A stretch of DNA of 64,000 nucleotides, from NCBI RefSeq assembly GCF_011398355.1, contig NZ_AP021889.1, positions 372,001-436,000 on the forward strand. Direction: 5' to 3'. A program made the translations under genes and the position numbers. Origin of the DNA: Thiosulfatimonas sediminis (GTDB taxonomy: Bacteria; Pseudomonadota; Gammaproteobacteria; Thiomicrospirales; Thiomicrospiraceae). Positions 13,153 to 34,420 of the stretch are shown here, one piece after another. Positions within the stretch are counted from its first letter, which is position 1. Every line of letters starts with the position of its first letter. Below the pieces are notes generated by a model. It was not told the origin of the DNA. It was given only the letters and a program-made list of their open reading frames with translations, and did not search any database.

Positions 13153-13707
13153 ATGCAGCTAAGCCCTTCCAAGATCATTGTTTTAGATCGCGATGGCGTG
13201 ATTAACCAAGATTCCGATGCCTTTATTAAGTCTGCCGAAGAGTGGCGGCCACTTGATGGTAGTATTGAAGCGATTCAACAACTCAAGGCCGATGGCTGGC
13301 GAGTGGCGATTGCCACCAATCAGTCGGGAATAAAACGCGGTTATTATGACCGCGCAACCTTGAGTGCCATGCATCAAAAAATGCATACTTTACTGGCGCC
13401 TTATAGGATTGATTGGATTAGCTATTCGCCCTATTTGGGCGAGGATAACTCTCCGGCACGCAAGCCAGCAGTGGGGATGTTCCAAGCGATTGAACAAGCG
13501 TTGAACATCTCTCTGCAAGGTGCGCCGATGGTGGGTGACACTTTGGCCGATATGCAAGCTGCTATGGCGATGCAAATGCAACCCTATTTAGTCAAAACCG
13601 GTAAAGGCGAGCGCACCTTAGCCTCGCAACATCCGCTATTGGCGAATATTCCGTTATACGATGATTTAGCGTCTGTTGTGCAGCATTTATTAAAGGAGAA
13701 AAGATGA
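13153..13707 (+). CDS. gmhB: GmhB-like D-glycero-D-manno-heptose bisphosphate phosphatase
   Basis: 184 aa, HAD-superfamily histidinol-phosphatase type. The nucleophile motif is D12-R-D14, followed by ATNQSGIKRGYYD and a C-terminal VGDTLADMQAA acid loop. GmhB removes the 7-phosphate in ADP-heptose synthesis for LPS inner core. The ATG at 13153 has Shine-Dalgarno CAGGAA; a TTG at 13123 lies inside the terminator and is rejected. Odd feature: the zinc-loop cysteines and histidine of E. coli GmhB are replaced (SYSPYLGEDNSPARKP carries none). Overlaps plsC by 4 bp. Confidence 0.85.
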   Translation: MQLSPSKIIVLDRDGVINQDSDAFIKSAEEWRPLDGSIEAIQQLKADGWRVAIATNQSGIKRGYYDRATLSAMHQKMHTLLAPYRIDWISYSPYLGEDNSPARKPAVGMFQAIEQALNISLQGAPMVGDTLADMQAAMAMQMQPYLVKTGKGERTLASQHPLLANIPLYDDLASVVQHLLKEKR

Positions 13708-14459
13708 ATCCGATTTTAATTTTACGTTCGCTGTTGTTCGCTTTAGGGCAGACAATCTCGCTGGTTGTGATATCTGTGTTAGGTCAATTAACTCTGCCGT
13801 TTTCACATAAAGCGCGTTACCGCGTAATGACCCAATGGGCGACGTTTTGTTTGTGGTGGTTACGTCTAACCTGCGGTATTAAAGTGCGTGTTCACGGCGC
13901 AGAGCTGATTCAGCCAGAAAAAGCTGGTCTAATCCTTGCTAGACATGAATCGGCTTGGGAAACCTTGCAGTTGCAACGTATTTTTCCACGGCAAGCATTT
14001 GTTTTGAAGGAAGAGTTATTGCGGATTCCTTTCTTCGGTTGGGGGATGAGATTACTTCACCCGATTGCGATTGACCGCGGTGCCGGACGAAAAGCTTTAA
14101 AGCAGATTTTGCAAGAGGGGCAAGCGCGTCTGGATGACGGTATTTGGGTGGTGATTTTTCCAGAAGGGACGCGGATGCCGCCGAACGAGTTGGGCAAAAT
14201 TAATATTGGCGCAGCCATGTTGGCTAAGCAGGCTCAAGTTCCGGTTTATCTTGTTGCGCATAACGGTGGTCATTTTTGGCCAAAAAACAGTTTTATGAAA
14301 CGCCCAGGCACGGTGGATTTGTACATTAAACGCATTGATGATGTTAGCGCCTTAAGTACGGCAGAAATTAATCAACTCACCGCAGAATGGTATCAACAAC
14401 ATTTTTCCGCTCCTTCGATTGCCGAGTCGTTAGACGCGCAGCCGGGGGGCCACGAATAA
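13704..14459 (+). CDS. plsC: 1-acyl-sn-glycerol-3-phosphate acyltransferase
   Basis: 251 aa. LPLAT family with an N-terminal membrane segment (about 5-30). The catalytic motif is H81-E-S-A-W-E86, the HX4E variant of HX4D that is normal in this proteobacterial branch. The substrate motif FPEGTR is at 152-157. Makes phosphatidic acid at the inner membrane. Translationally coupled to gmhB through a 4-bp overlap, a common gammaproteobacterial arrangement downstream of glyQS. Confidence 0.92.
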   Translation: MNPILILRSLLFALGQTISLVVISVLGQLTLPFSHKARYRVMTQWATFCLWWLRLTCGIKVRVHGAELIQPEKAGLILARHESAWETLQLQRIFPRQAFVLKEELLRIPFFGWGMRLLHPIAIDRGAGRKALKQILQEGQARLDDGIWVVIFPEGTRMPPNELGKINIGAAMLAKQAQVPVYLVAHNGGHFWPKNSFMKRPGTVDLYIKRIDDVSALSTAEINQLTAEWYQQHFSAPSIAESLDAQPGGHE

Positions 14460-14497: not shown

Positions 14498-15322
14498 ATG
14501 AGTCGGCTTGCCAGTTTTCTAGGGATTGCATTTGCCATAGTGCTGCTTGCACTGAGTGTGTTCGATTACGATCAGCAACAATTTATTCACGCCTTCTTTA
14601 ACTGGCAAGCACTGTTATTGGTGCTTGGAGGAACCTTAGCTGCGGTATTGATTAACTATCCCCTCAACCAAGTCTGGTCGATTTTCCCCGGCGTTTATAA
14701 AATTTTTGCCAGAGAACCCCGCTCTGATGAAGATTTGATTAATGAAATTTTTGATTTGGCGATGCTCGGTAAGCGTAAAGGGGTTTTGGCCATCGAAAAT
14801 CATCTGGACAATGTGGATGATAAATTCCTGCGTACCGCTTTGAATGAGATGTTGCTTTATCAAGACAAAGACAAATTGCGTGAAGCTTTGCAAACCCGTT
14901 TGATGACAACTCGTCTACAAGAACTCAACTCGCAAGAAGTGTTTATCAATATGGCCTCTTATTCACCGGCTTTCGGCATGATGGGCACGGTAATGGGGTT
15001 GATTATCATGATGACCACCGAAGTGAATGTCGATTTGAACTCACTGGCCACATCGCCAACGAACGATATGCTATCCGGCTTATTGCATGGTATGGGTTTG
15101 GCGTTGGTGACGACCTTCTATGGTGTCTTGTTGGCGAATATGCTGTTTCTACCGATTGCCGGAAAACTGAAGGTGTTGAGCGAGCAGGATTTGCTGAGAA
15201 ACGAGATGATTATCCATGCGGTGGTTGCGATTAAAGGGAATGAACCGGCGCTGTTAATTAAAGAGCAGTTGATGTCATTTGTGCATGAGAAAACTCGGCA
15301 GCGTCTTGGCGAGCTTGTTTAA
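14498..15322 (+). CDS. MotA/TolQ/ExbB-like proton channel protein (stator cluster 1)
   Basis: 274 aa. Four predicted membrane segments: two near the N terminus (about 5-20 and 33-52), then two long ones after a cytoplasmic domain (about 150-172 and 190-220, with FGMMGTVMGLIIMM). This is the MotA topology. It opens a three-gene unit with two OmpA-C-terminal partners (15350 and 16129), so it likely forms the pentameric channel of a proton- or sodium-driven rotary complex. A second, canonical motAB pair is at 32.8-34.4 kb, so this one may serve a different machine. Shine-Dalgarno AGAGGAA. Confidence 0.8.
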   Translation: MSRLASFLGIAFAIVLLALSVFDYDQQQFIHAFFNWQALLLVLGGTLAAVLINYPLNQVWSIFPGVYKIFAREPRSDEDLINEIFDLAMLGKRKGVLAIENHLDNVDDKFLRTALNEMLLYQDKDKLREALQTRLMTTRLQELNSQEVFINMASYSPAFGMMGTVMGLIIMMTTEVNVDLNSLATSPTNDMLSGLLHGMGLALVTTFYGVLLANMLFLPIAGKLKVLSEQDLLRNEMIIHAVVAIKGNEPALLIKEQLMSFVHEKTRQRLGELV

Positions 15323-15349
15323 CCAGCGTCTGCGCTAGGAGGTCGAAGT

Positions 15350-16132
15350 ATGCTCAGCTTAAGCAAGTACTCCAAAGGCGGTTCTCTGCTTTTTAAAGGC
15401 AATCCGGTCGCCGCTGCGCCAACATGGTTGTTGGTGTATATCGGACTGTTCACCTCGTTATTGGCGATTTTTCTGTTTATTCTCAGTGTGATTGAATTGG
15501 AAAGCGTCCCTCCCAAACGGGCATATCAAAATGTTGTTAATGATCTCTACCAGCGTGCTGAAAATTATAAACAAGAGCGTGGCATGGTGTGGTTGCAAGT
15601 TGAAAATACACTCAACAAAGGGGTGCGTTTAAGCTTAGACCCGAATATTTTAGGGGCGCAGAATCTGTTTGAATCGGCGCAAGTGGCGATTAATCCAGAA
15701 TTAACGCCTTATCTATTGCAGATGGCTAAATTGATTGAGAGCTTGAACTTGCCGCAGGCGCCGGAGTATTACCAGCGCTGGCTACGCCATTTGCAAGCGG
15801 TGGATATTGAAGCCCAATTTTTTGTCCGCGTTGAAGGGCATACCGACGCCTATCCGATGTTGCCAAATGCGCGTTTTAAAGACAATGTTGAGCTAAGCAG
15901 TTACCGCGCTTATGCGGTAATGTCATTTTTGCAATTGTATAGCGGCTTGGCACCAGAGTATTTTATGATTGCCGGTTATGGCAGCTTTCATCCCTTGCGG
16001 CAGTATCTGTTTGCCGCGCATAATCGACGGGTTGAGGTTTATCTGTTACCGAAACTTTCACTATTAGAAAATTCCAGTCTTCCCTTGCCGAATTTACGTC
16101 AAGACACGCCAGTTACCGAGGTATTGGAATGA
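15350..16132 (+). CDS. OmpA-like single-pass membrane protein, stator cluster 1, no membrane Asp
   Basis: 260 aa. One N-terminal membrane helix (about 25-47), then a periplasmic linker and a C-terminal OmpA/MotB peptidoglycan-binding domain (VEGHTDAYPM, then NRRVEVYLL). Unlike MotB, the membrane helix has no aspartate (TWLLVYIGLFTSLLAIFLFI), so it probably cannot conduct ions itself. It sits between a MotA-like gene and a MotB-like gene and overlaps the latter by 4 bp. Shine-Dalgarno GGAGG. Likely a structural anchor in a three-component stator; this is inference. Confidence 0.72.
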   Translation: MLSLSKYSKGGSLLFKGNPVAAAPTWLLVYIGLFTSLLAIFLFILSVIELESVPPKRAYQNVVNDLYQRAENYKQERGMVWLQVENTLNKGVRLSLDPNILGAQNLFESAQVAINPELTPYLLQMAKLIESLNLPQAPEYYQRWLRHLQAVDIEAQFFVRVEGHTDAYPMLPNARFKDNVELSSYRAYAVMSFLQLYSGLAPEYFMIAGYGSFHPLRQYLFAAHNRRVEVYLLPKLSLLENSSLPLPNLRQDTPVTEVLE

Positions 16133-16881
16133 TTTCTCGCTGGCTGGTGACATCGCCGGATAAGCGCGCGCGCAGTGGCTGGCTATTGGCGTTTGGTGAT
16201 GTGATTACCTTGTTAATTACGTTTTTTATTATGATGATTGTGCTCAATAAAACCCAAGTTTCCAAGCTACAAGTTTGGGCGGATGAGCAGGTTAATAGCG
16301 CTTATCTGGAGCTAGAACAGCAGATTGATAACCAAGGATTACAAGTGGTGTCGGTGCATCGCACGCCGCAAGGTATTTTGTTCAAGGTGCAAAGTGCGGC
16401 CGCATTCGATCGTGCCGGCTATACCCCGTCCGCACAGCTGCAAGAAGAGCTGCAGTATCTGGGTGTGTTGCTAAAACAGAGTCGCTTGTTTCGCTTGGCC
16501 GATCAAGACTCCCCGCAGACGCGAGTTATTTTAGAGTATGCGGCGCAGCAAGATTTGTATTGGAATGCCGAAATCGTGATAGAAGGGCATACCGACAGTG
16601 ATTCTATTTTGCCTAACTCCCCGCTACAAAATAACTGGTTTTTAAGCGCCATGCGCGCGCAAACTGTTATGGATCAGCTCTTTCAGGCCTCGGAGTTACC
16701 GCCGCAACAATTTTCGATTTCTGGTTTTGCTGAGCACCATCCGGTGCAGAGCAATGAAACGGCTGCGGGCAAAGAGCGTAATCGACGGATTGAGATTTTA
16801 CTTACTGCTGGCTTTGTGACGCGTCTACCGGATGAAGTGGCAACGGTTGTTGCGCCTGTGCCAGAGGCAGCTGCCAATTAA
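16129..16881 (+). CDS. MotB-like stator protein (cluster 1)
   Basis: 250 aa. The single N-terminal membrane helix has the ion-carrying aspartate D24 in GWLLAFGDVITLLITFF, matching the essential MotB Asp. The C-terminal OmpA domain (about 145-230) contains IEGHTDSDSIL and RNRRIEILL. It overlaps the upstream OmpA-like gene by 4 bp, and its last 80 bp overlap the 3' end of ung on the other strand. Expected partner of the MotA-like protein at 14498. Confidence 0.8.
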   Translation: MISRWLVTSPDKRARSGWLLAFGDVITLLITFFIMMIVLNKTQVSKLQVWADEQVNSAYLELEQQIDNQGLQVVSVHRTPQGILFKVQSAAAFDRAGYTPSAQLQEELQYLGVLLKQSRLFRLADQDSPQTRVILEYAAQQDLYWNAEIVIEGHTDSDSILPNSPLQNNWFLSAMRAQTVMDQLFQASELPPQQFSISGFAEHHPVQSNETAAGKERNRRIEILLTAGFVTRLPDEVATVVAPVPEAAAN

Positions 16882-17542
16882 TCGGTGTTTTGCCATGTTG
16901 CTGGAGATATTGGTTGCTTTGCGAAAATGGTTTACTGCCAAAAAAACCACGATACGCCGATAACGGAGAGGGGTGTGCGGTTTTAATCACCAAGTGACGC
17001 TGTGCGTCGATTTTAGCGCCTTTCTTTTGTGCATAATTACCCCATAAAATAAACACACAGTGTTCGCAGTGCTGATTGACGAGCTCGATAATTTTATCGG
17101 TAAAACGCTCCCAGCCTTGTCCTTGATGCGAATTGGCCTTGCCGGCTTGCACGCTTAACACTGAATTCAACAGCAACACGCCCTGTTCAGCCCAAGGTTG
17201 TAAAAAACCGCTGTGGCGATTATCTATGCCCAAATCATCAAGCAGTTCCTGATTGATATTGTTCAGTGATTTCGGCAAGGGTTTTACACTGGGTAAAACC
17301 GAAAAACACAATCCGTGGGCGTGTCCAGGTGTGGGGTAGGGGTCTTGGCCGAGAATCACCACTTTGACTGACTCCAGAGGCGTCGCATTGAGCGCATTAA
17401 AGCGCTGTGATGCTGGCGGCAGTATTGTCTCACCTTGTTCGCTTTGTTGTTGCAGCATTGCGCAAAGCTGCTGCATATAAGCTCGCTCCAATTCGCTTTG
17501 TAAATGGTTTTGCCAGCCGGCGCTTAATTTGATTTCGCTCAT
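16802..17542 (-). CDS. ung: Uracil-DNA glycosylase
   Basis: 246 aa. Family 1 UDG that removes uracil from DNA. The water-activating motif GQDPYP (about residue 61) and the DNA-intercalation motif HPSPLSA near residue 185 are intact. The ATG at 17542 gives the standard N terminus; an upstream in-frame start at 17569 adds 9 residues and is less likely. The C-terminal 27 codons, rich in Gln and Pro, overlap the end of the convergent motB-like gene. Confidence 0.95.
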   Translation of the reverse strand: MSEIKLSAGWQNHLQSELERAYMQQLCAMLQQQSEQGETILPPASQRFNALNATPLESVKVVILGQDPYPTPGHAHGLCFSVLPSVKPLPKSLNNINQELLDDLGIDNRHSGFLQPWAEQGVLLLNSVLSVQAGKANSHQGQGWERFTDKIIELVNQHCEHCVFILWGNYAQKKGAKIDAQRHLVIKTAHPSPLSAYRGFFGSKPFSQSNQYLQQHGKTPINWQLPLAQAQQPLPLHPVDASQSQQ

Positions 17543-17674
17543 TTTGCAATCAATCCTCGGTCTCTGCACATTTCAAGCCGGTCGAGCGGCGGATAAGCGG
17601 GAAAATTATGGTATTATCGGCGCTAAATTGGGCATTATTTTATCACCCCAACTGTCACCTTTAGGAGTTTTGCC

Positions 17675-19579
17675 TTGGCCGAAAACTACAATGCAGCGGA
17701 AATTGAAGTCTTAACTGGTTTAGAACCGGTGCGTAAGCGTCCTGGAATGTATACCGACACCACGCGACCAAATCATTTAGCGCAGGAAGTGATCGATAAC
17801 AGTGTCGATGAAGCGCTGGCTGGACACGCCGATGAGATAACCATTACCCACTTTGCCGACGGCTCGATGAGTGTGGTCGACAATGGTCGCGGTATGCCCG
17901 TCGATATTCATCCGGAAGAAGGCGTTCCGGGGGTGGAAGTGATTATGACCCGATTGCACGCCGGTGGAAAATTTTCCAATAAATCCTACAGTTTTTCCGG
18001 TGGTTTGCATGGTGTCGGGATTTCGGTGGTGAATGCGTTGTCGACCAAAGTGGTGGTCCAGATTCGTCGCGATGCGAAGCTTTATGAGATTGAGTTTGCC
18101 AATGGTGATTTAGCCAAACCGCTTGCAGAAATTGGCAAGGTCGGTAAACGTAATACCGGAACCCTTGTGCATTTTTGGCCGGATGCAAAGTTTTTTGATA
18201 GTGCTAAGTTCTCGATTAGCAAATTGCTGTATCTATTGCGCGCCAAAGCAGTGTTGTGTTCCGGGTTAAAAGTGAATTTTATTGACGAAAAAACCGGCCA
18301 GAAAGAGACATGGCAGTACCAGCAAGGTTTAAAAGATTATCTTAATGACGCGCTTGATGGGCGTGAGCGTCTGCCGCAAGAAGGTTTTGTTGGGCACAGC
18401 ATTGCGGAAAACGAACAGGTGGAATGGGCGATTGCTTGGCTGGAAGAGCCGAGTGAGTTACTCAATGAAAGTTATGTAAACTTGATACCAACACCGCAAG
18501 GCGGTACGCATGTTAATGGGCTTCGAGCCGGCGTTACCGAAGCGGTTCGCGAGTTTTGCGAATTTCGTAATCTGCTGCCCCGTGGCGTTAAAATCACCCC
18601 GGAAGACGCCTGGCTGAACGTCGCTTTTGTGTTGTCGGCAAAATTGCAGGAACCGCAGTTTGCTGGGCAGACCAAAGAGCGTTTGTCGTCGCGTGAGTGT
18701 GTGCCGTTTATTTCCGGAGTGGTCAAAGATGCGCTAAGTTTATGGTTAAACCAACACACTGAAGTGGCCGAGAAAATTGCCGAGTTGGTGATTGCTAATG
18801 CCAACAGTCGTTCGCGCAAAGCCAAAAAAGTGGTGCGTAAGAAAATCACTTCAGGTCCAGCGTTGCCAGGAAAATTAGCCGATTGTGTTGATAATGATTT
18901 AGCGCGGACGGAACTTTTTTTGGTGGAAGGGGATTCGGCAGGCGGCTCGGCTAAACAGGCGCGTGATAAAAATTTCCAGGCGATTATGCCTTTGCGCGGT
19001 AAGATTTTAAACACTTGGGAGGTTGAATCTTCCCAAGTGTTGGCATCACAAGAGATTCACGATATTTCGGTAGCGATAGGCGTCGATCCCGGCTCGGACG
19101 ATTTAAGTGGATTGCGTTATGGAAAAATTTGTATTTTGGCCGATGCGGATTCGGATGGCTTACATATCGCCACGCTCATTTGTGCGCTGTTTGTGAAGCA
19201 TTTTGAAAAACTGGTGGCCGAGGGGCATATTTATGTCGCGATGCCGCCGCTGTATCGAATTGATGTCGGTAAACGCGTGTTTTATGCGCTTGATGAGGCA
19301 GAGCGCCAAGGGGTGCTGGACCGGATTAGCGCTGAAAAACTTGCTGGCAAAATACAGGTTACGCGTTTTAAAGGGTTGGGTGAGATGAACCCTGGACAGT
19401 TGCGCGAAACCACCATGCTGCCGGAAAGTCGACGTTTGGTGCAGTTGCAATTAACGGCCGATGATGCTGAAAACCCAAAACAGAATGTGTCTGAAGTGAT
19501 GGATATGTTATTGGCGAAAAAACGCAGCCCAGATCGTAAATCCTGGTTAGAGCTAAAAGGCGATTTAGCCAGCGTTTAA
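17675..19579 (+). CDS. parE: DNA topoisomerase IV subunit B
   Basis: 634 aa, full length. GHKL ATPase (DNSVDEAL, NGRGMP, GLHGVG), transducer domain and TOPRIM (EGDSAGGSA, DADSDG). Works with ParC (30272) to decatenate chromosomes. The TTG start has Shine-Dalgarno TTTAGGAG. The stop codon overlaps that of the convergent hybrid sensor gene by 4 bp. ParE and ParC are separated by about 10.7 kb. Confidence 0.96.
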   Translation: MAENYNAAEIEVLTGLEPVRKRPGMYTDTTRPNHLAQEVIDNSVDEALAGHADEITITHFADGSMSVVDNGRGMPVDIHPEEGVPGVEVIMTRLHAGGKFSNKSYSFSGGLHGVGISVVNALSTKVVVQIRRDAKLYEIEFANGDLAKPLAEIGKVGKRNTGTLVHFWPDAKFFDSAKFSISKLLYLLRAKAVLCSGLKVNFIDEKTGQKETWQYQQGLKDYLNDALDGRERLPQEGFVGHSIAENEQVEWAIAWLEEPSELLNESYVNLIPTPQGGTHVNGLRAGVTEAVREFCEFRNLLPRGVKITPEDAWLNVAFVLSAKLQEPQFAGQTKERLSSRECVPFISGVVKDALSLWLNQHTEVAEKIAELVIANANSRSRKAKKVVRKKITSGPALPGKLADCVDNDLARTELFLVEGDSAGGSAKQARDKNFQAIMPLRGKILNTWEVESSQVLASQEIHDISVAIGVDPGSDDLSGLRYGKICILADADSDGLHIATLICALFVKHFEKLVAEGHIYVAMPPLYRIDVGKRVFYALDEAERQGVLDRISAEKLAGKIQVTRFKGLGEMNPGQLRETTMLPESRRLVQLQLTADDAENPKQNVSEVMDMLLAKKRSPDRKSWLELKGDLASV

Positions 19580-22500
19580 CCGCCACCATCGATGGGGCCA
19601 AAGATTCGATTGCGGCCAAGTGCTTTGGCGTGATAGAGAAATTTGTCGGTACGTTGCAGTAAGTTGTTAGCGTCTTGTGGCGTTTGGATAAAGGCCGCGC
19701 TGTAACCTAGACTGACGGTGAGTTCGCTGGCAACTTTTGAGTGTTCGTGTGGGATATGCAAATCACGGACGACCTGACAAAATTGTTCAGCGACTTTCTG
19801 GGTGCCGATTAAATCGGTTTCAGGTAGCAGTGCGACAAATTCTTCGCCGGCATAGCGCGCGAGCATATCGGCGGGGCGGCGTAGTATATTGTTCATCGCA
19901 TGCGCCACTTTATGCAAGCACTCATCACCAAGGCCATGTCCATAGTGTTCGTTATAGGCTTTGAAGCTATCCATATCAATCAAAATAATACCGAGCATTT
20001 TTTCACTGCGGGCTAGGCGTTTACTCTCTTTGAATAGAGTTTCCTCAAACTGACGGCGGTTGGGAAGTTTGGTCAGGCTGTCAATGTCAGATAGCTGTTC
20101 GAGCATCTCAGTTTTGATTTTTAGCGCTAAATGATTGCGAATACGCGAATGGACAATCGGCAGTGAATAGGGGCGGAATAGGTAATCTAGCGCGCCGAGT
20201 CGAAGTCCTTTTTCAACGTCAATCGCTTGCTCTGCATCGCACAGTAGGATGATTGAAATGTGCTTGGTCTGCTCGTCTTCTTTGAGTTTTTTGCACAGCG
20301 TCAGCCCGTCGATATTTGGCATGTTGATATCCAGCAACAGTACGTCTGGACGTTTATCTGAGCGGGCAATTTGTAACACTTGTTCGCCAGTTAAGGTGCT
20401 TTCGACAAGGTAGTCGGCTTGCAGAACATCACTCAATAAACTGGCATTACTGGCGAGTGTTTCGGCAATTAAGATGCTCGGTTGTTTCGGTGCATTCAGC
20501 TGTTTTATGGGTACGGCATCAATGGCTGCAGTAACCCGATCAAACAGTAGATATTCACTTAACGTGCTCTTGAGTTGTTCGTCATCAATCGGCTTGGTGA
20601 GATAGGCATTCATCCCGAATTTAAGCGCTTTTTCTTTATCGGCAGGCATGGCTGCGGCGGTGAGCGCGATAATAGGGATCTTAATGTTAAATTCGCGAAT
20701 CCGTTTGGTGGTTTCAAAACCGTTCAGACCAGGCATTTGCAAATCCATAAGCACCAAATCAAAGGTTTCATTTTTTAATAATTCAATCGCCTGCTGTCCG
20801 GTTTCTGCGTGATGGGTATGCAGATTAATGTTTTGCAAAATCTGGCTGATAAATTCCGCATTAAGCTGGTTGTCTTCGACCACCAAAATGTTCTGCTGAT
20901 TGAAACGGATGGTTTTGGTTTGGTTGAGCGGATAAATGTTTTCTTGTTTATTGACCGCAATTTGGTTAAGCGTATTGAACAGCGCCGAGCGGCTGAAAGG
21001 CAATGCCAGATAAGCGACGCCTTTAACCTCTTGAATCGGTTGGCGTAGCATTAGGTTGCTTAAACAAACCAACTTGGGCATTGGCTGGTTAAGTTCGATA
21101 TGCTGTTCAAGGAAGCGCTGTATATCTTTGAGAAGGATATTGGTGCGCTGTTGTTCGCTCAACGACTCCATGAAAATCACGTCGTAGGTTTTATCATCGG
21201 CAAACTTGGTATCTAATTCGCTCATAATTGGACGATTGGCGGTGATTTTTTCGACGATAAATCCCCATGCTTTTAACGTGCGGCTGAGAATATCGCCGCT
21301 GGCTTGGGATTGTTCAATGATTAAGGCTCGACAGGTCGGGTTGAGACATTTAAATAGGGTTTTCTGTTGATTGATGTGCGCCGTTTGAAATTCTAGGCTA
21401 AAGCATACTTCGGTTCCACCGCCGACTTCGGAGCGAATTTGCAAAGCATCGCCACCCATTAATAGTAATAAACGTTCGCTGATGACCAAACCTAAGCCAT
21501 GCGAGTTACGGTAGTTGAATTGATTGTAATGGCCATTTTTTAAGTTTTGCATCAGCGCACTGAGCTTTTGCTGTTCTATGCCGGCACCGCTGTCACGTAC
21601 GCAAAAATTCAGTTTGATTTGGCTTTCGTTACGCTGATGAACCAAATCAATCACCAACTCAATTGTTCCACCGCGAGTGAATTTAATCGAATTAGAGATT
21701 AGATTGGATAAAAGCTGTGTCAGACGCAATGGGTCGCCGATAAGGTAGTTTGGCGCACTGGGGTTGACGTTAAAGAGCAGTTGATTTTTTTTCTCTAGGT
21801 TGCTGCTGGTAAACATAATCGCGAGCTGCTCAATCACCTGATCGAGTTTAAATTGCGTGCGTTCGATGCTGATTGGGTGCTTGCGTGAATATCGATCATC
21901 GAGCACATCGTTGATGAGATTAAGCATCAACAAGCCAGCAAAATGGGTGTGGTAGGTGCGCTCAAGTGCCTGTTCGGTGAGGTGCGAGTCTTGCATTTGA
22001 AGAGCGCTTAAACCAACAACCGAATTGAGCGGTGTGCGTAGTTCTTGGCTTATACGTGATAAAAATTCTTGGGTATCTGTGTTGTCTTGTTCGGCTTGGC
22101 GCGCTTGTTGTCTGATGACTTCAAAGGCTTCTTGGTTGTGGGCGGCCAAGTCATTAAATAGGGTTTGTAGTTTGCTAACAGCATCCAGTTCACTGGCGCT
22201 TTGCAAGGTAATAGGATGAATCTCGTTCCTCTCATTTTTAAGGGTGAGTAGGGCTTCGCTTAGCGCTCGAATCGGCACTAATTGTTGTTTTAACCGCCAG
22301 CGATAGAGCATCATCGCGAAGCTCAAAAAGACCGCCAAGAGAACCAGTAGGTTTAAGAATTGTTGAATCGCCGTTTGCCTTGCCGGTAGATTGTCAATGG
22401 TGAGAATCACCAGCCAAGGAAGGTCTTCTAACTGGTAAGCCGAGTACAATTTTTGATCGTTAAACGCATTGCCTAAGGCTCCGGTAAAGCGGCCGCTAAG

Positions 22501-23208
22501 GATTAGGCTAAGCAGTGGGTTGTCATTTGCGGTCATTGACTGCATAGCCAAGCTTTTTTCGCTGGAGTAGATGACGAGATGATTATCTAAGTCATAAATT
22601 GAGTAGTCGCCGCCATTGCGTAGATTCGGTTTGATATTGCTGACCAGATCACCCTGTAAAGACATAATGCCCAGTAAATAAGCGATGGGTTGCCCGGTTT
22701 TATCGCTAATAGGGGTAATGATGTAGATGACCATTTGGTTTAATTGCTTATCAAAGCTTGGTGGGCTGGTGTAAGTACGCAGAGATTGGTTTAAAACGCG
22801 GAAAAAAGGTTTATTGGCAAAGGACTCACCGACTCTTTCGCTCTGTGCTGGTGAGTGGCGGATAATCTCCCCTTGCTGATTTAGAATCGCAAGACCGCCA
22901 CCAAAGTAATCATGCAAGCGGATTCTGGAATCCAGCGAATTTTGTAATTGCGCGTCGGAAAGTAATTGATTGTCTTGAATTAAATTGCTGGCAAAACGCT
23001 CTAAGGTGTCTTTGCGGTTGTTAATGTTTTGGTTAAGTTGCAGTGCAAAATTTTGGCTGAGCTGATCCAACTGGCGCATTTCATTAGCGGACTGGTTTTG
23101 ATAGCTGAGATAAGCCATCCCAAACGCCGCAAAAATGAGTGCAGACAGTGCGCTAAGAAAGATAAACAACCAGCCTGTGGTTGTCTTGTTGTTGCTCAGA
23201 CCAAACAT
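19576..23208 (-). CDS. Large hybrid sensor: Cache - degenerate HisKA - HATPase - 3 receiver-like - GGDEF
   Basis: 1210 aa. Membrane helix 12-34, periplasmic Cache-like sensor (about 40-280), second helix (about 283-303), histidine kinase region 380-610, a degenerate receiver (about 625-755), a receiver with phosphoacceptor D822 and K872, a third receiver with D960 but Arg at the Lys position (1012), and a C-terminal GGDEF (about 1040-1205) with AGEEF at 1120-1124. The H-box reads ISQELRTPLN: Gln388 replaces the phosphorylated His, so autophosphorylation looks impossible although the N-box (NLISNSIKF, 502-510) is kept. Probably a diguanylate cyclase controlled by ligand or by phosphorelay from elsewhere. 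Shine-Dalgarno AAGGAT. Confidence 0.85.
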   Translation of the reverse strand: MFGLSNNKTTTGWLFIFLSALSALIFAAFGMAYLSYQNQSANEMRQLDQLSQNFALQLNQNINNRKDTLERFASNLIQDNQLLSDAQLQNSLDSRIRLHDYFGGGLAILNQQGEIIRHSPAQSERVGESFANKPFFRVLNQSLRTYTSPPSFDKQLNQMVIYIITPISDKTGQPIAYLLGIMSLQGDLVSNIKPNLRNGGDYSIYDLDNHLVIYSSEKSLAMQSMTANDNPLLSLILSGRFTGALGNAFNDQKLYSAYQLEDLPWLVILTIDNLPARQTAIQQFLNLLVLLAVFLSFAMMLYRWRLKQQLVPIRALSEALLTLKNERNEIHPITLQSASELDAVSKLQTLFNDLAAHNQEAFEVIRQQARQAEQDNTDTQEFLSRISQELRTPLNSVVGLSALQMQDSHLTEQALERTYHTHFAGLLMLNLINDVLDDRYSRKHPISIERTQFKLDQVIEQLAIMFTSSNLEKKNQLLFNVNPSAPNYLIGDPLRLTQLLSNLISNSIKFTRGGTIELVIDLVHQRNESQIKLNFCVRDSGAGIEQQKLSALMQNLKNGHYNQFNYRNSHGLGLVISERLLLLMGGDALQIRSEVGGGTEVCFSLEFQTAHINQQKTLFKCLNPTCRALIIEQSQASGDILSRTLKAWGFIVEKITANRPIMSELDTKFADDKTYDVIFMESLSEQQRTNILLKDIQRFLEQHIELNQPMPKLVCLSNLMLRQPIQEVKGVAYLALPFSRSALFNTLNQIAVNKQENIYPLNQTKTIRFNQQNILVVEDNQLNAEFISQILQNINLHTHHAETGQQAIELLKNETFDLVLMDLQMPGLNGFETTKRIREFNIKIPIIALTAAAMPADKEKALKFGMNAYLTKPIDDEQLKSTLSEYLLFDRVTAAIDAVPIKQLNAPKQPSILIAETLASNASLLSDVLQADYLVESTLTGEQVLQIARSDKRPDVLLLDINMPNIDGLTLCKKLKEDEQTKHISIILLCDAEQAIDVEKGLRLGALDYLFRPYSLPIVHSRIRNHLALKIKTEMLEQLSDIDSLTKLPNRRQFEETLFKESKRLARSEKMLGIILIDMDSFKAYNEHYGHGLGDECLHKVAHAMNNILRRPADMLARYAGEEFVALLPETDLIGTQKVAEQFCQVVRDLHIPHEHSKVASELTVSLGYSAAFIQTPQDANNLLQRTDKFLYHAKALGRNRIFGPIDGGG

Positions 23209-32640: not shown

Positions 32641-32827
32641 TCTGTGTGTCCTTAGTACGTTCTTGCTAAACCGGAGTCTTTTCTTAAGGTTTTCAAGAGG
32701 GAGCCGTTAAAGGTTACAGTCACTTTAGCGTATTGTGGCTTGTTATGTGCTTGCACTAAATCTCTATTTCATTTTGTTCATTTCAGCAGGCGAGAAGTTG
32801 TCTTCTTTGCCTGTAATTAGGTCTTTT

Positions 32828-33670
32828 ATGATAGCTAAGCCGATTGCCTTATTTATTATTATCGCCAGTTTTCTTGGCGGTTTTGTGTTGATGGGCGGTA
32901 ACCTGTCTGCTTTGTGGCATCCTTCGGAATTGGTGGTTATTCTGGGCATTGCGTTGGGCGCATTTATGGCATCTACGCCGGTTAATGTTTGGATGCGTAC
33001 CCTGCATTTTGTCGGCCGTTTTTTTGCAGGAGAGCGAGTCTCAAAACAGCTTTATGCAGAAACCTTAGGGTTATTGGAGGAGTTGTCGCGTCTGTCGCGT
33101 GGTGCAGGTGTTTTGGCATTAGAAAAGCATCTAATTGCGCCGGAAGACAGTCCAATTTTTACGCAGTATCCACGCGTGTTAAAGCACCCTGACTTAAAGA
33201 AATTTATCACCGAGAATTTCAGTTATTTGCTGCTCAATCCTCCCGCATCACAAAGTTTTCATGAGCATTTGGCGAAACAGATCAGCACCATGACCAACTC
33301 AATGATGGAGGTGCCGCGTGCAGCGGGTAAGGTGGCGGATTGGTTGCCTGGTTTTGGTATCGTTGCGGCGGTCATGGGGGTGATTTTGACTATGGATATG
33401 CTGGGTGGCGATATGGATGTCGCCGTTATTGGCGGGGCGATTGGCGCGGCTTTGGTTGGGACTTTAACCGGCGTGTTTTTGGCTTTTGCGATTTTGGCGC
33501 CCTTTGTGCATTCGGTTGAAATTATGGTACGCCAAGATCGCACTCTGTTTGAAATGGCGGCCTCGTTTATGGTGGCTTATGCAAATGGCGTGTCGCCCAG
33601 TTTGTCGGTCGAAATTGGTCGGCAAATTGTGCCGCCAGAATTTGCGGTGCCTAGAGAAGAAGAGGCGTAA
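32828..33670 (+). CDS. motA: Flagellar motor stator protein MotA/PomA
   Basis: 280 aa from ATG 32828. Four membrane helices in canonical order: two at the N terminus (about 3-22 and 32-50), a cytoplasmic domain (55-165), and two after it (about 170-190 and 200-225, with LPGFGIVAAVMGVILTM). The family prolines of the third helix are present. Upstream in-frame starts at 32735 would add a non-family hydrophobic stretch. It forms the ion channel that drives flagellar rotation together with MotB. The downstream gene starts 3 bp after the stop. Confidence 0.88.
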   Translation: MIAKPIALFIIIASFLGGFVLMGGNLSALWHPSELVVILGIALGAFMASTPVNVWMRTLHFVGRFFAGERVSKQLYAETLGLLEELSRLSRGAGVLALEKHLIAPEDSPIFTQYPRVLKHPDLKKFITENFSYLLLNPPASQSFHEHLAKQISTMTNSMMEVPRAAGKVADWLPGFGIVAAVMGVILTMDMLGGDMDVAVIGGAIGAALVGTLTGVFLAFAILAPFVHSVEIMVRQDRTLFEMAASFMVAYANGVSPSLSVEIGRQIVPPEFAVPREEEA

Positions 33671-33673
33671 TCC

Positions 33674-34420
33674 ATGTCGGATATTGATGAAGGAGGCGCA
33701 CACGGCGGTGCTTGGAAAATCGCTTTAGCCGATTTGATGACGGTCTTAATGGTGCTGTTTTTAGTGCTTTGGTTGATTTCGATTGTCGATCCCAAAGATC
33801 GCCAAGCTTTCGTCAATGCAATGCAAGGACAGCCGCCGATTGGGGCAGAAATTGAAGATGAAAAATTGTTTACTCCGCAAGTTGATTTAATTGATTTACA
33901 GATGAAACCGCCCGTTTCACGGGAGGAATTGCAAAAAGCCTTGCAAGAGGTGAATCCAAAAGATGTGCAAATCGAAGAAACAGATGATTACGTGAAAATT
34001 ACCCTGTTTTCCGATAGTTTTTTTGAAAGCGGTCGGGCCACGATTAACGATGCAACGCGTGAACAGCTCGAGAAGCTTGGTGAAACTTTGGCTGGACGAG
34101 ATCAAACAATCACCATTACCGGTTATACCGATACGCTTCCGATTAATAATCTGATTTTTCCATCCAACTGGGAATTGTCTGCTGCGCGTGCCGCAACGGT
34201 CGCGCGTACATTTATTGACATGGGGTTGACGGCCTCACAAGTGACCATTGCCGGTAAGGCGGACAACGACCCTGTTGCCGAGAATGATACCCCTTACGGT
34301 CGTTCTTTAAACCGTCGAGTGATTATTTATGTGGATAAACGCCCAGAAAAGTCTGCGAACAGCGCAGTTCCCAATGGCGTGCCAACGGGTAATCCTTTTA
34401 AAGCGGGTCGCGTTCCGTAA
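33674..34420 (+). CDS. motB: Flagellar motor stator protein MotB/PomB
   Basis: 248 aa. Short cytoplasmic start, then one membrane helix carrying the ion-binding D20 (WKIALADLMTVLMVLFLVLWLI), a plug/linker region, and an OmpA-type peptidoglycan-binding domain (about 110-225, with ITGYTDTLPINN and SLNRRVIIYV). Partner of MotA. Its last 23 bp overlap the end of the convergent moeB-like gene. The coupling ion (H+ or Na+) cannot be read from sequence alone. Confidence 0.9.
   Translation: MSDIDEGGAHGGAWKIALADLMTVLMVLFLVLWLISIVDPKDRQAFVNAMQGQPPIGAEIEDEKLFTPQVDLIDLQMKPPVSREELQKALQEVNPKDVQIEETDDYVKITLFSDSFFESGRATINDATREQLEKLGETLAGRDQTITITGYTDTLPINNLIFPSNWELSAARAATVARTFIDMGLTASQVTIAGKADNDPVAENDTPYGRSLNRRVIIYVDKRPEKSANSAVPNGVPTGNPFKAGRVP

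Follow-up and report, generated by a model that had tools for sequence, protein, structure and literature searches.

The window, that is, the whole 64,000-nucleotide stretch of DNA analyzed here, belongs to a sulfur-oxidizing bacterium with a genome of 2.72 Mb in one contig. It carries a triad of stator-type genes, designated A1, B1, and B2, with the following features in and around it.

13704-14459, + strand: plsC-type acyltransferase gene, directly upstream of A1 (named by eye, no family search)
14498-15322, + strand: A1, 274 aa, MotA/PomA-type stator A subunit (Pfam MotA_ExbB; model with a pLDDT of 78)
15350-16132, + strand: B1, 260 aa, MotB paralogue in which Gly replaces the ion-binding Asp (Pfam OmpA, alignments, and model)
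16129-16881, + strand: B2, 250 aa, MotB type, with Asp24, a MotB plug, and an OmpA domain (Pfam)
16802-17569, - strand: ORF for an ung-type uracil-DNA glycosylase, convergent with B2 and overlapping its 3' end (named by eye; the start is that of the longest ORF, and the real one is possibly further in)
32735-34420, + strand: ordinary motA-motB pair, outside the triad and used for comparison only

A sequence-only reading had described a MotA-like gene followed by two OmpA-type genes, and the ORF list and Pfam matches agree with it in both the ORFs and their coordinates. The standard motAB pair that it placed near 32.8 kb is also real, with 32735-33670 matching the TIGR03818 MotA model at 248 bits, under the cut-off of 303.8, and 33674-34420 encoding a MotB that keeps the Asp. 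Three more MotAB-type pairs (L002, L005, and L007) are present in the genome. The B1 stop and the B2 start share 4 bases (ATGA), and a purine-rich stretch precedes each of A1, B1, and B2. The plsC-type gene lies directly upstream of A1 in 20 of the 21 named triad loci and is perhaps in the same operon as the triad, while the ung-type neighbor recurs in many relatives and bounds the cluster. A conserved partner gene between B2 and ung was rejected. Five of the eight loci inspected have a chemoreceptor-like gene (named by eye) on the other strand, convergent to B2 (L041:7391-9223, L045:7309-9093, L047:7227-9005, L049:7295-9139, and L059:8009-9673, all - strand), and this gene is not general since only those five have it. 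Elsewhere in the window, a 1210-aa ORF beside parE (19576-23208, - strand) resembles, by eye, a hybrid histidine kinase that has receiver and GGDEF-type regions.

The two B proteins share 27% identity across residues 22 to 233. B2 has the features of the MotB family, namely, a single transmembrane (TM) helix with an Asp, a plug (Pfam MotB_plug, 37.5 bits), and an OmpA-type domain (Pfam OmpA, 47 bits). B1 matches OmpA at 32 bits, with no match to MotB_plug, and its model (pLDDT of 86) matches the folds of the periplasmic domains of MotB, MotS, and PomB. The claim that the membrane Asp is confined to B2 holds: Asp24 lies within FGDVITLL, and the aligned B1 residue is the Gly within YIGLFTSLL. 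Because the TM Asp is absent, as it is in 32 of 33 distinct B1 orthologues, B1 is a MotB paralogue and not a standard MotB. Calling B1 an "OmpA protein" was correct about that domain but fell short in that B1 is a paralogue of MotB from the TM helix to the OmpA domain. B1 of the window lineage also has what is expected of an OmpA-type peptidoglycan-binding domain, retaining the GHTD Asp in 30 of 31 sequences and the Arg in 31 of 31, which we take to be the residues that bind peptidoglycan. These residues suit an accessory role for B1, in which A1 and B2 form a conventional 5:2 motor that has two ion sites and B1 binds peptidoglycan and, from outside, the A1 ring or another load protein. The window-lineage B2, which has the Asp, the plug, and the peptidoglycan motif, looks like a complete MotB by itself, so that a B2 homodimer could work without B1. 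Accessory stator proteins are also known, such as MotK and MotE in Cereibacter, as described in the accessible part of one paper (PMC10954123). We consider such an accessory anchor unlikely, and evidence that bears against it is given below with the conservation of B1 and the second lineage of triads.

A1 matches Pfam MotA_ExbB at 73 bits and shares 92% identity with its counterpart in the closely related Thiomicrorhabdus marina. The single-chain model of A1 (pLDDT of 78) matches flagellar MotA and PomA structures with Z scores of 19.6 to 25.3 (top, PomA 8brd, 25.3), ExbB/TolQ at no more than 11, and Zorya ZorA at no more than 7.4, among the families in the match list; families absent from that list may match as well. 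Flagellar-type A subunits are characterized, in the accessible part of a study of the family, by a four-helix membrane fold, an unbroken TM3, and a cytoplasmic domain with at least four short helices (PMC12505986). The A1 model has this fold, with helices at 62-71, 77-94, 97-105, and 109-120 and an unbroken helix at 124-176, the count being read by eye off DSSP. The FliG-facing charged residues are R90/E98 in Escherichia coli MotA and R88/E96 in Aquifex MotA. The torque-interface Glu (the E96 position) is present in all 32 window-lineage A1 proteins, and position 88 is basic (Lys or Arg) in 22 of the 32, with Gln, His, Tyr, or Phe in the rest. The TM3-TM4 loop is longer in A1 (22 of 32 window-lineage proteins parsed; 10 misparsed) than in the other MotA proteins compared, and it is likewise long in Marinimicrobia relatives. 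In one genome, G007 (L017:2461-3147 = L055:5001-5687), the A1 frame stops at 228 aa, 156 bases before B1, and may be a damaged gene, an error, or a short form.

The survey of co-occurrence that the sequence-only reading had proposed found A1, B1, and B2 together in 21 of 58 related genomes and never as a partial set (orthologues at >=236 bits for A1 and >=124 bits for B1, with a second MotB-type match beside B1 in each). The window's own family, represented by 37 genomes, accounts for all 21, and the triad was found in none of the other 21 genomes searched. Since each of the 21 genomes with an A1 or B1 orthologue has all three genes, the triad is not a product of chance. Homologues in which the first OmpA gene normally stands apart from the MotA-like gene, which would have spoken against a joint system, did not turn up: B1 adjoins B2 in 21 of 21 genomes and adjoins A1 in each of them save G032, where a contig break parts the two. 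A scan of named genomes yielded 29 loci, 21 of them with the triad, from Thiomicrorhabdus, Thiomicrospira, Hydrogenovibrio, Sulfurivirga, and relatives; three of these 21 loci have B2 cut by a contig end. With longest-ORF starts, all 31 triads measured have overlapping B1 and B2 genes, and in 22 of them the overlap is 4 bases long. The triad is a real, conserved variant.

It is hardly credible that B1 is a duplicate in decay that travels with the operon and has no role. In favor of decay, B1 is interrupted between an open A1 and B2 in G019 (L028:1342-2210), a genome that is 99% complete, through either a sequencing error or a real loss. Against it, the B1 match is free of internal stops in 20 of the 21 related genomes, the OmpA core of B1 is nearly as conserved as that of B2 (mean pairwise identities of 0.53 and 0.57), and the one-sided loss of the Asp is repeated in other lineages.

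In the alignment, the Asp position of the 33 distinct B1 proteins is occupied by Ser (12), Ala (12), Gly (7), Thr (1), and Asp (1), whereas Asp is kept in all 33 distinct B2 partners. It is also kept in all 47 B proteins that could be read from two-gene loci, which were reached by similarity searches and are not a random sample (48 rows, with one, L074, left out as misread in the wrong frame). Therefore, in this sample, the Asp has been lost only beside an Asp-bearing twin. The single B1 with Asp, from Thiomicrospira sp. Kmv17 (L045), is nested among Asp-less B1 proteins in the tree and by that position looks like a reversal or gene conversion. The 33 B1 proteins comprise 32 from the overlapping genome and named-locus sets plus L029. 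L028 was left out of the B1 statistics and the trees, its B1 being interrupted (its true B2 has the Asp); L029, with A1 on another contig, was left out of the conservation and overlap statistics; and the B2 proteins of L046 and L053, cut by contig ends, were left out of the B2 conservation statistics, although their Asp is visible in the alignment. An argument about helix packing from a bulky residue before the B1 Asp position was dropped because 13 of the 47 two-gene-locus B proteins share such a residue. These 13 (L071, L079, L080, L083, L084, and L086-L093) have Leu, Val, Ile, or Met at the residue preceding the Asp, a site that is Ala in most of the proteins and is given as a core position of the MotB coiled coil in the accessible text of PMC10659934.

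The TM helix is the best-kept part of B1, with a mean pairwise identity of 0.60, compared with 0.40 for the plug/linker and 0.53 for the OmpA core, and is less conserved than the TM helix of B2 (0.77). Homology with MotB that includes this best-kept helix argues against B1 as an accessory anchor. The conservation of B1 also bears on a third possibility, that B1 regulates dosage. B1 and B2 would then mix freely, with B1:B1 dead, B1:B2 slow, and B2:B2 fully active, and B1 would set the output. The ion-binding Asp is indeed absent from B1, and B1 comes first and overlaps B2, so the two proteins are probably made together. Yet a blocker could tolerate much change, while B1 is conserved from the helix to the OmpA domain and is present wherever A1 and B2 are, save for the interrupted copy in G019. 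We regard dosage regulation as quite improbable.

A class-wide search with A1 covered 369 genomes, of which 30 matched at 1e-30, and revealed a divergent triad in G156. The genes in the surrounding 14 kb, named by eye on the pattern of flagellar operons, are presumably fliI, fliJ, a MotE-like gene, fliK, flgD, flgE, motA, motB1, motB2, fliL, fliM, fliN, and fliP. A single gammaproteobacterium outside the window lineage shows the triad anatomy, with Ser at the B1 Asp position. Among three genomes of G156's order, only G156 matched at 1e-12, and its B1, used as the query, had matches at 1e-10 in 83 of 398 genomes from the phylum. The 30 loci fetched with this query comprise 25 with the order motA-motB1-motB2-fliL, four with a single MotB, and one (L106) with B1 and B2 of this second lineage on a contig that begins before A, which was not counted. 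Of the 25 loci, 24 are in family f207 and one is in f227, of another proteobacterial class; flgE is visible in 5. A B1 orthologue (>=174 bits) occurs in 54 of 78 genomes of the second lineage's class, the Asp position being read in the fetched loci only. There, B1 has Glu (22) or Gln (3) and B2 has Asp in 25 of 25, so the second-lineage B1 is Asp-less and not surely ion-blind, because Glu itself can be protonated. The FliG-facing charged positions of the second-lineage A proteins and L082 are Arg, Lys, and Glu in 26 of 26. Since its genes sit with fliL, and with flgE where that is in view, the second-lineage triad is most likely a flagellar stator.

The peptidoglycan motif in the second lineage is distributed differently between the two B proteins. 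B1 keeps the GHTD Asp, the Asn, and the Arg in 25 of 25 loci, while at the GHTD Asp position B2 has Asp in 14, Asn in 8, and Ser in 3. In the 11 triads where B2 has lost it, B1 is without the ion Asp and B2 without the wall-motif Asp, and therefore neither looks complete alone. B2 may thus not be self-sufficient, which counts against B1 as an accessory anchor to an ordinary A1-B2 motor. Judged from the residues, such a pattern would be expected of two proteins that are obligate halves of a single complex. The split of ion and wall roles is not general, because the window lineage keeps the motif in both proteins and, in L082 and L098, the motif is degenerate in B1 and not in B2, opposite to the second lineage.

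The trees were quick searches without bootstrap, with groups defined by anatomy, and took in 21 window-lineage B pairs, 20 A1 proteins, 11 of the 25 second-lineage triads, and L082 (left out, L064, L074, L085, L091, L097, L114, and L127). In the A tree, the window A1 group and the second-lineage A group lie apart, and a joint clade was rejected (AU test, p=0.006). A common B1 clade was not rejected (p=0.26), so a single origin of the triad is rejected for A but not for B1. The fewest changes of Asp state needed on the B tree, in which the deep forks are unresolved, are three. Window B1, B2, and the single B of Marinimicrobia fall on one side of a branch with SH-aLRT 99, in no settled order.

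We lean slightly toward the reading that A1, B1, and B2 together make up a single rotary motor that is driven by ions and built like MotA5:MotB2, with the two axle positions filled by B1 and B2. B1 and B2 would heterodimerize inside an A1 pentamer (5:1:1), and both OmpA domains would anchor the axle to peptidoglycan. In the model for MotA5MotB2, as given in the accessible parts of two papers, the pentamer turns round the dimer in 36-degree steps, with one ion per step and the two Asp residues alternating (PMC10659934, PMC9389320). If B1 and B2 formed the axle, ions could drive only one step in two, and because of this, about 5 ions rather than 10 would be expected per turn, carried by B2 only, perhaps in elementary steps of 72 degrees rather than 36. 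The suggestion of an asymmetric motor, already made from the sequence, is strengthened by the one-sided loss of the Asp in B1 and by a like anatomy in distant flagellar operons, whereas the assembly itself is deduced. Counted in favor of the B1:B2 motor are the strict co-occurrence, the one-sided loss, the overlap of B1 and B2, the TM helix as the best-kept part of B1, the recurrence in other lineages, and the rejection of a joint A clade. Counted against it are the apparent completeness of the window-lineage B2 by itself, the protonatable Glu of the second-lineage B1, the lower conservation of the B1 TM helix relative to that of B2, the degenerate B1 motif of L082 and L098, the Asp in L045, the interrupted B1 of G019, the short A1 of G007, and the common B1 origin that was not rejected.

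A broader proposal, which we hold tentatively and at somewhat less than an even chance, is that a symmetric MotA5MotB2 turned, perhaps more than once, into MotA5:MotB1:MotB2, in which just one ion-binding Asp is left, and that in one lineage this happened inside a flagellar operon. Such a motor would use about 5 ions for each turn, and its B subunits would partly share out ion carriage and wall anchoring between them. The triad recurs beyond the family and may represent versions of a rotary motor that run on one site where two are believed necessary. If this is true, nature would have a one-site rotary motor, at odds with the model of two alternating sites, and a natural motor with one site missing would allow a direct test of two-Asp alternation (10 ions per turn). 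The asymmetry of B1 and B2 would let each axle chain be labeled and mutated separately, and the triad is more interesting because it is recurrent in flagellar operons.

The load of the window-lineage motor was considered separately. Of the 37 family genomes, 19 of the 21 with the triad and 15 of the 16 without it have FliM, and hence there is no association of the triad with flagella, and a simple extra stator tied to them was rejected. The triad is also missing from many flagellated relatives in the family. In G007 and G010, the triad is present and neither FliM nor a strong FliG match was found; these drafts are 88% and 86% complete, and the absence is weakened by FliG and FliM lying close together and by the short A1 (228 aa) of G007. 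The motor in the window lineage is probably auxiliary, with flagellar use only putative, and the plsC/gmhB neighborhood would fit a role in the envelope as well. At L137:2829-3769 (G000:C1:2298328-2299268), two 154-aa ORFs lie in tandem, each with a weak match to FliG_C (26 and 21 bits), and such pairs occur in most family genomes, with or without the triad.

Marinimicrobia were searched with the A1-like protein of L060, and 73 of 100 genomes of this phylum matched at an E value of 1e-30 or better, many with multiple copies and some evidently of another type. No triad turned up in this phylum among the 20 loci fetched: 10 have one B gene, each with the Asp, and 10 have no B recognized by BLAST, with no B among the downstream ORFs in the five of these inspected. 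FliM is absent from four of four Marinimicrobia genomes, and each has a FliG-like protein. One of the phylum, G403, has a row (L138:5368-9910, - strand) of a MotA-like protein, a MotB-like protein, a 614-aa coiled-coil membrane protein that by eye resembles FliF, and a 311-aa protein that matches FliG_C, and the genome has no FliM match; this row may encode a stripped-down rotor-stator motor that is not flagellar. Contigs of casp150, UBP8, and Margulisiibacteriota have, immediately upstream of MotA-MotB, an ORF that is FliG-like by eye (L065:3440-4915, L066:56-769, and L067:1626-3053, with 491, 237, and 475 aa in view), and in the two longer ones (491 and 475 aa), the FliG-like part is joined to a membrane part.

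Several known systems resemble the triad in part. No Asp-less MotB paralogue in such a triad was found in the literature searched, which lay mostly outside subscription journals. TolQ-TolR-TolA and ExbB-ExbD-TonB each consist of a 5:2 motor plus a further single-pass partner, and TolQRA and TonB-ExbBD structures are among the fold matches of A1. The triad is like them in its extra single-pass protein and unlike them in that A1 is nearer to flagellar MotA; to our knowledge, TolA and TonB are not MotB paralogues. Zorya consists of ZorA with a long tail, ZorB, and the effectors ZorC/D or ZorE. ZorA and ZorB are MotAB homologues, B1 and B2 match ZorB models (42 and 72 bits), and ZorAB chains are among the fold matches of B1. 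In contrast, the 274-aa A1 has no PADLOC match and reaches a Z score of at most 7.4 with ZorA, and the flanking genes read as housekeeping. Zorya defense was rejected on the lack of a PADLOC match for A1 and the adjoining ORFs, which in the immediate flanks read as plsC and ung.

The gliding motor AglR/AglQ/AglS of Myxococcus also combines one A with two B homologues, and in the accessible parts of the papers, AglQ and AglS are suggested in one place to be two coupled subunits of one motor, while elsewhere it is stated that homo- versus heterodimerization is not known (PMC9389320, PMC9120999, PMC3169522). Unlike the OmpA-type B proteins of the triad, AglQ and AglS are of the ExbD/TolR type (162 and 194 aa); B1 and B2 match OmpA/MotB models, with no ExbD match at an E value of 0.1, and the triad was not assigned to AglRQS. 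The gene order of the triad is that of the Aquifex aeolicus motA/motB1/motB2 operon, where a single motA precedes two motB genes (PMC4525482, PMC4987623). According to the accessible text, the N-terminal and TM regions of the Aquifex MotB1 and MotB2 are 97% identical, with one Gly/Ser difference at residue 20 (PMC4525482), and a chimera with either TM was functional in E. coli (PMC4525482, PMC4987623). Unlike in the triad, both Aquifex MotB proteins would keep the Asp, judging from the 97% identity. The MotA5MotB2/PomA5PomB2 stator is matched by the fold of A1 (Z score of up to 25.3 to PomA 8brd) and by the plug, Asp, and OmpA domain of B2. The triad differs from this stator in having two B genes, one of them Asp-less, a longer TM3-TM4 loop in A1, and a position behind plsC.
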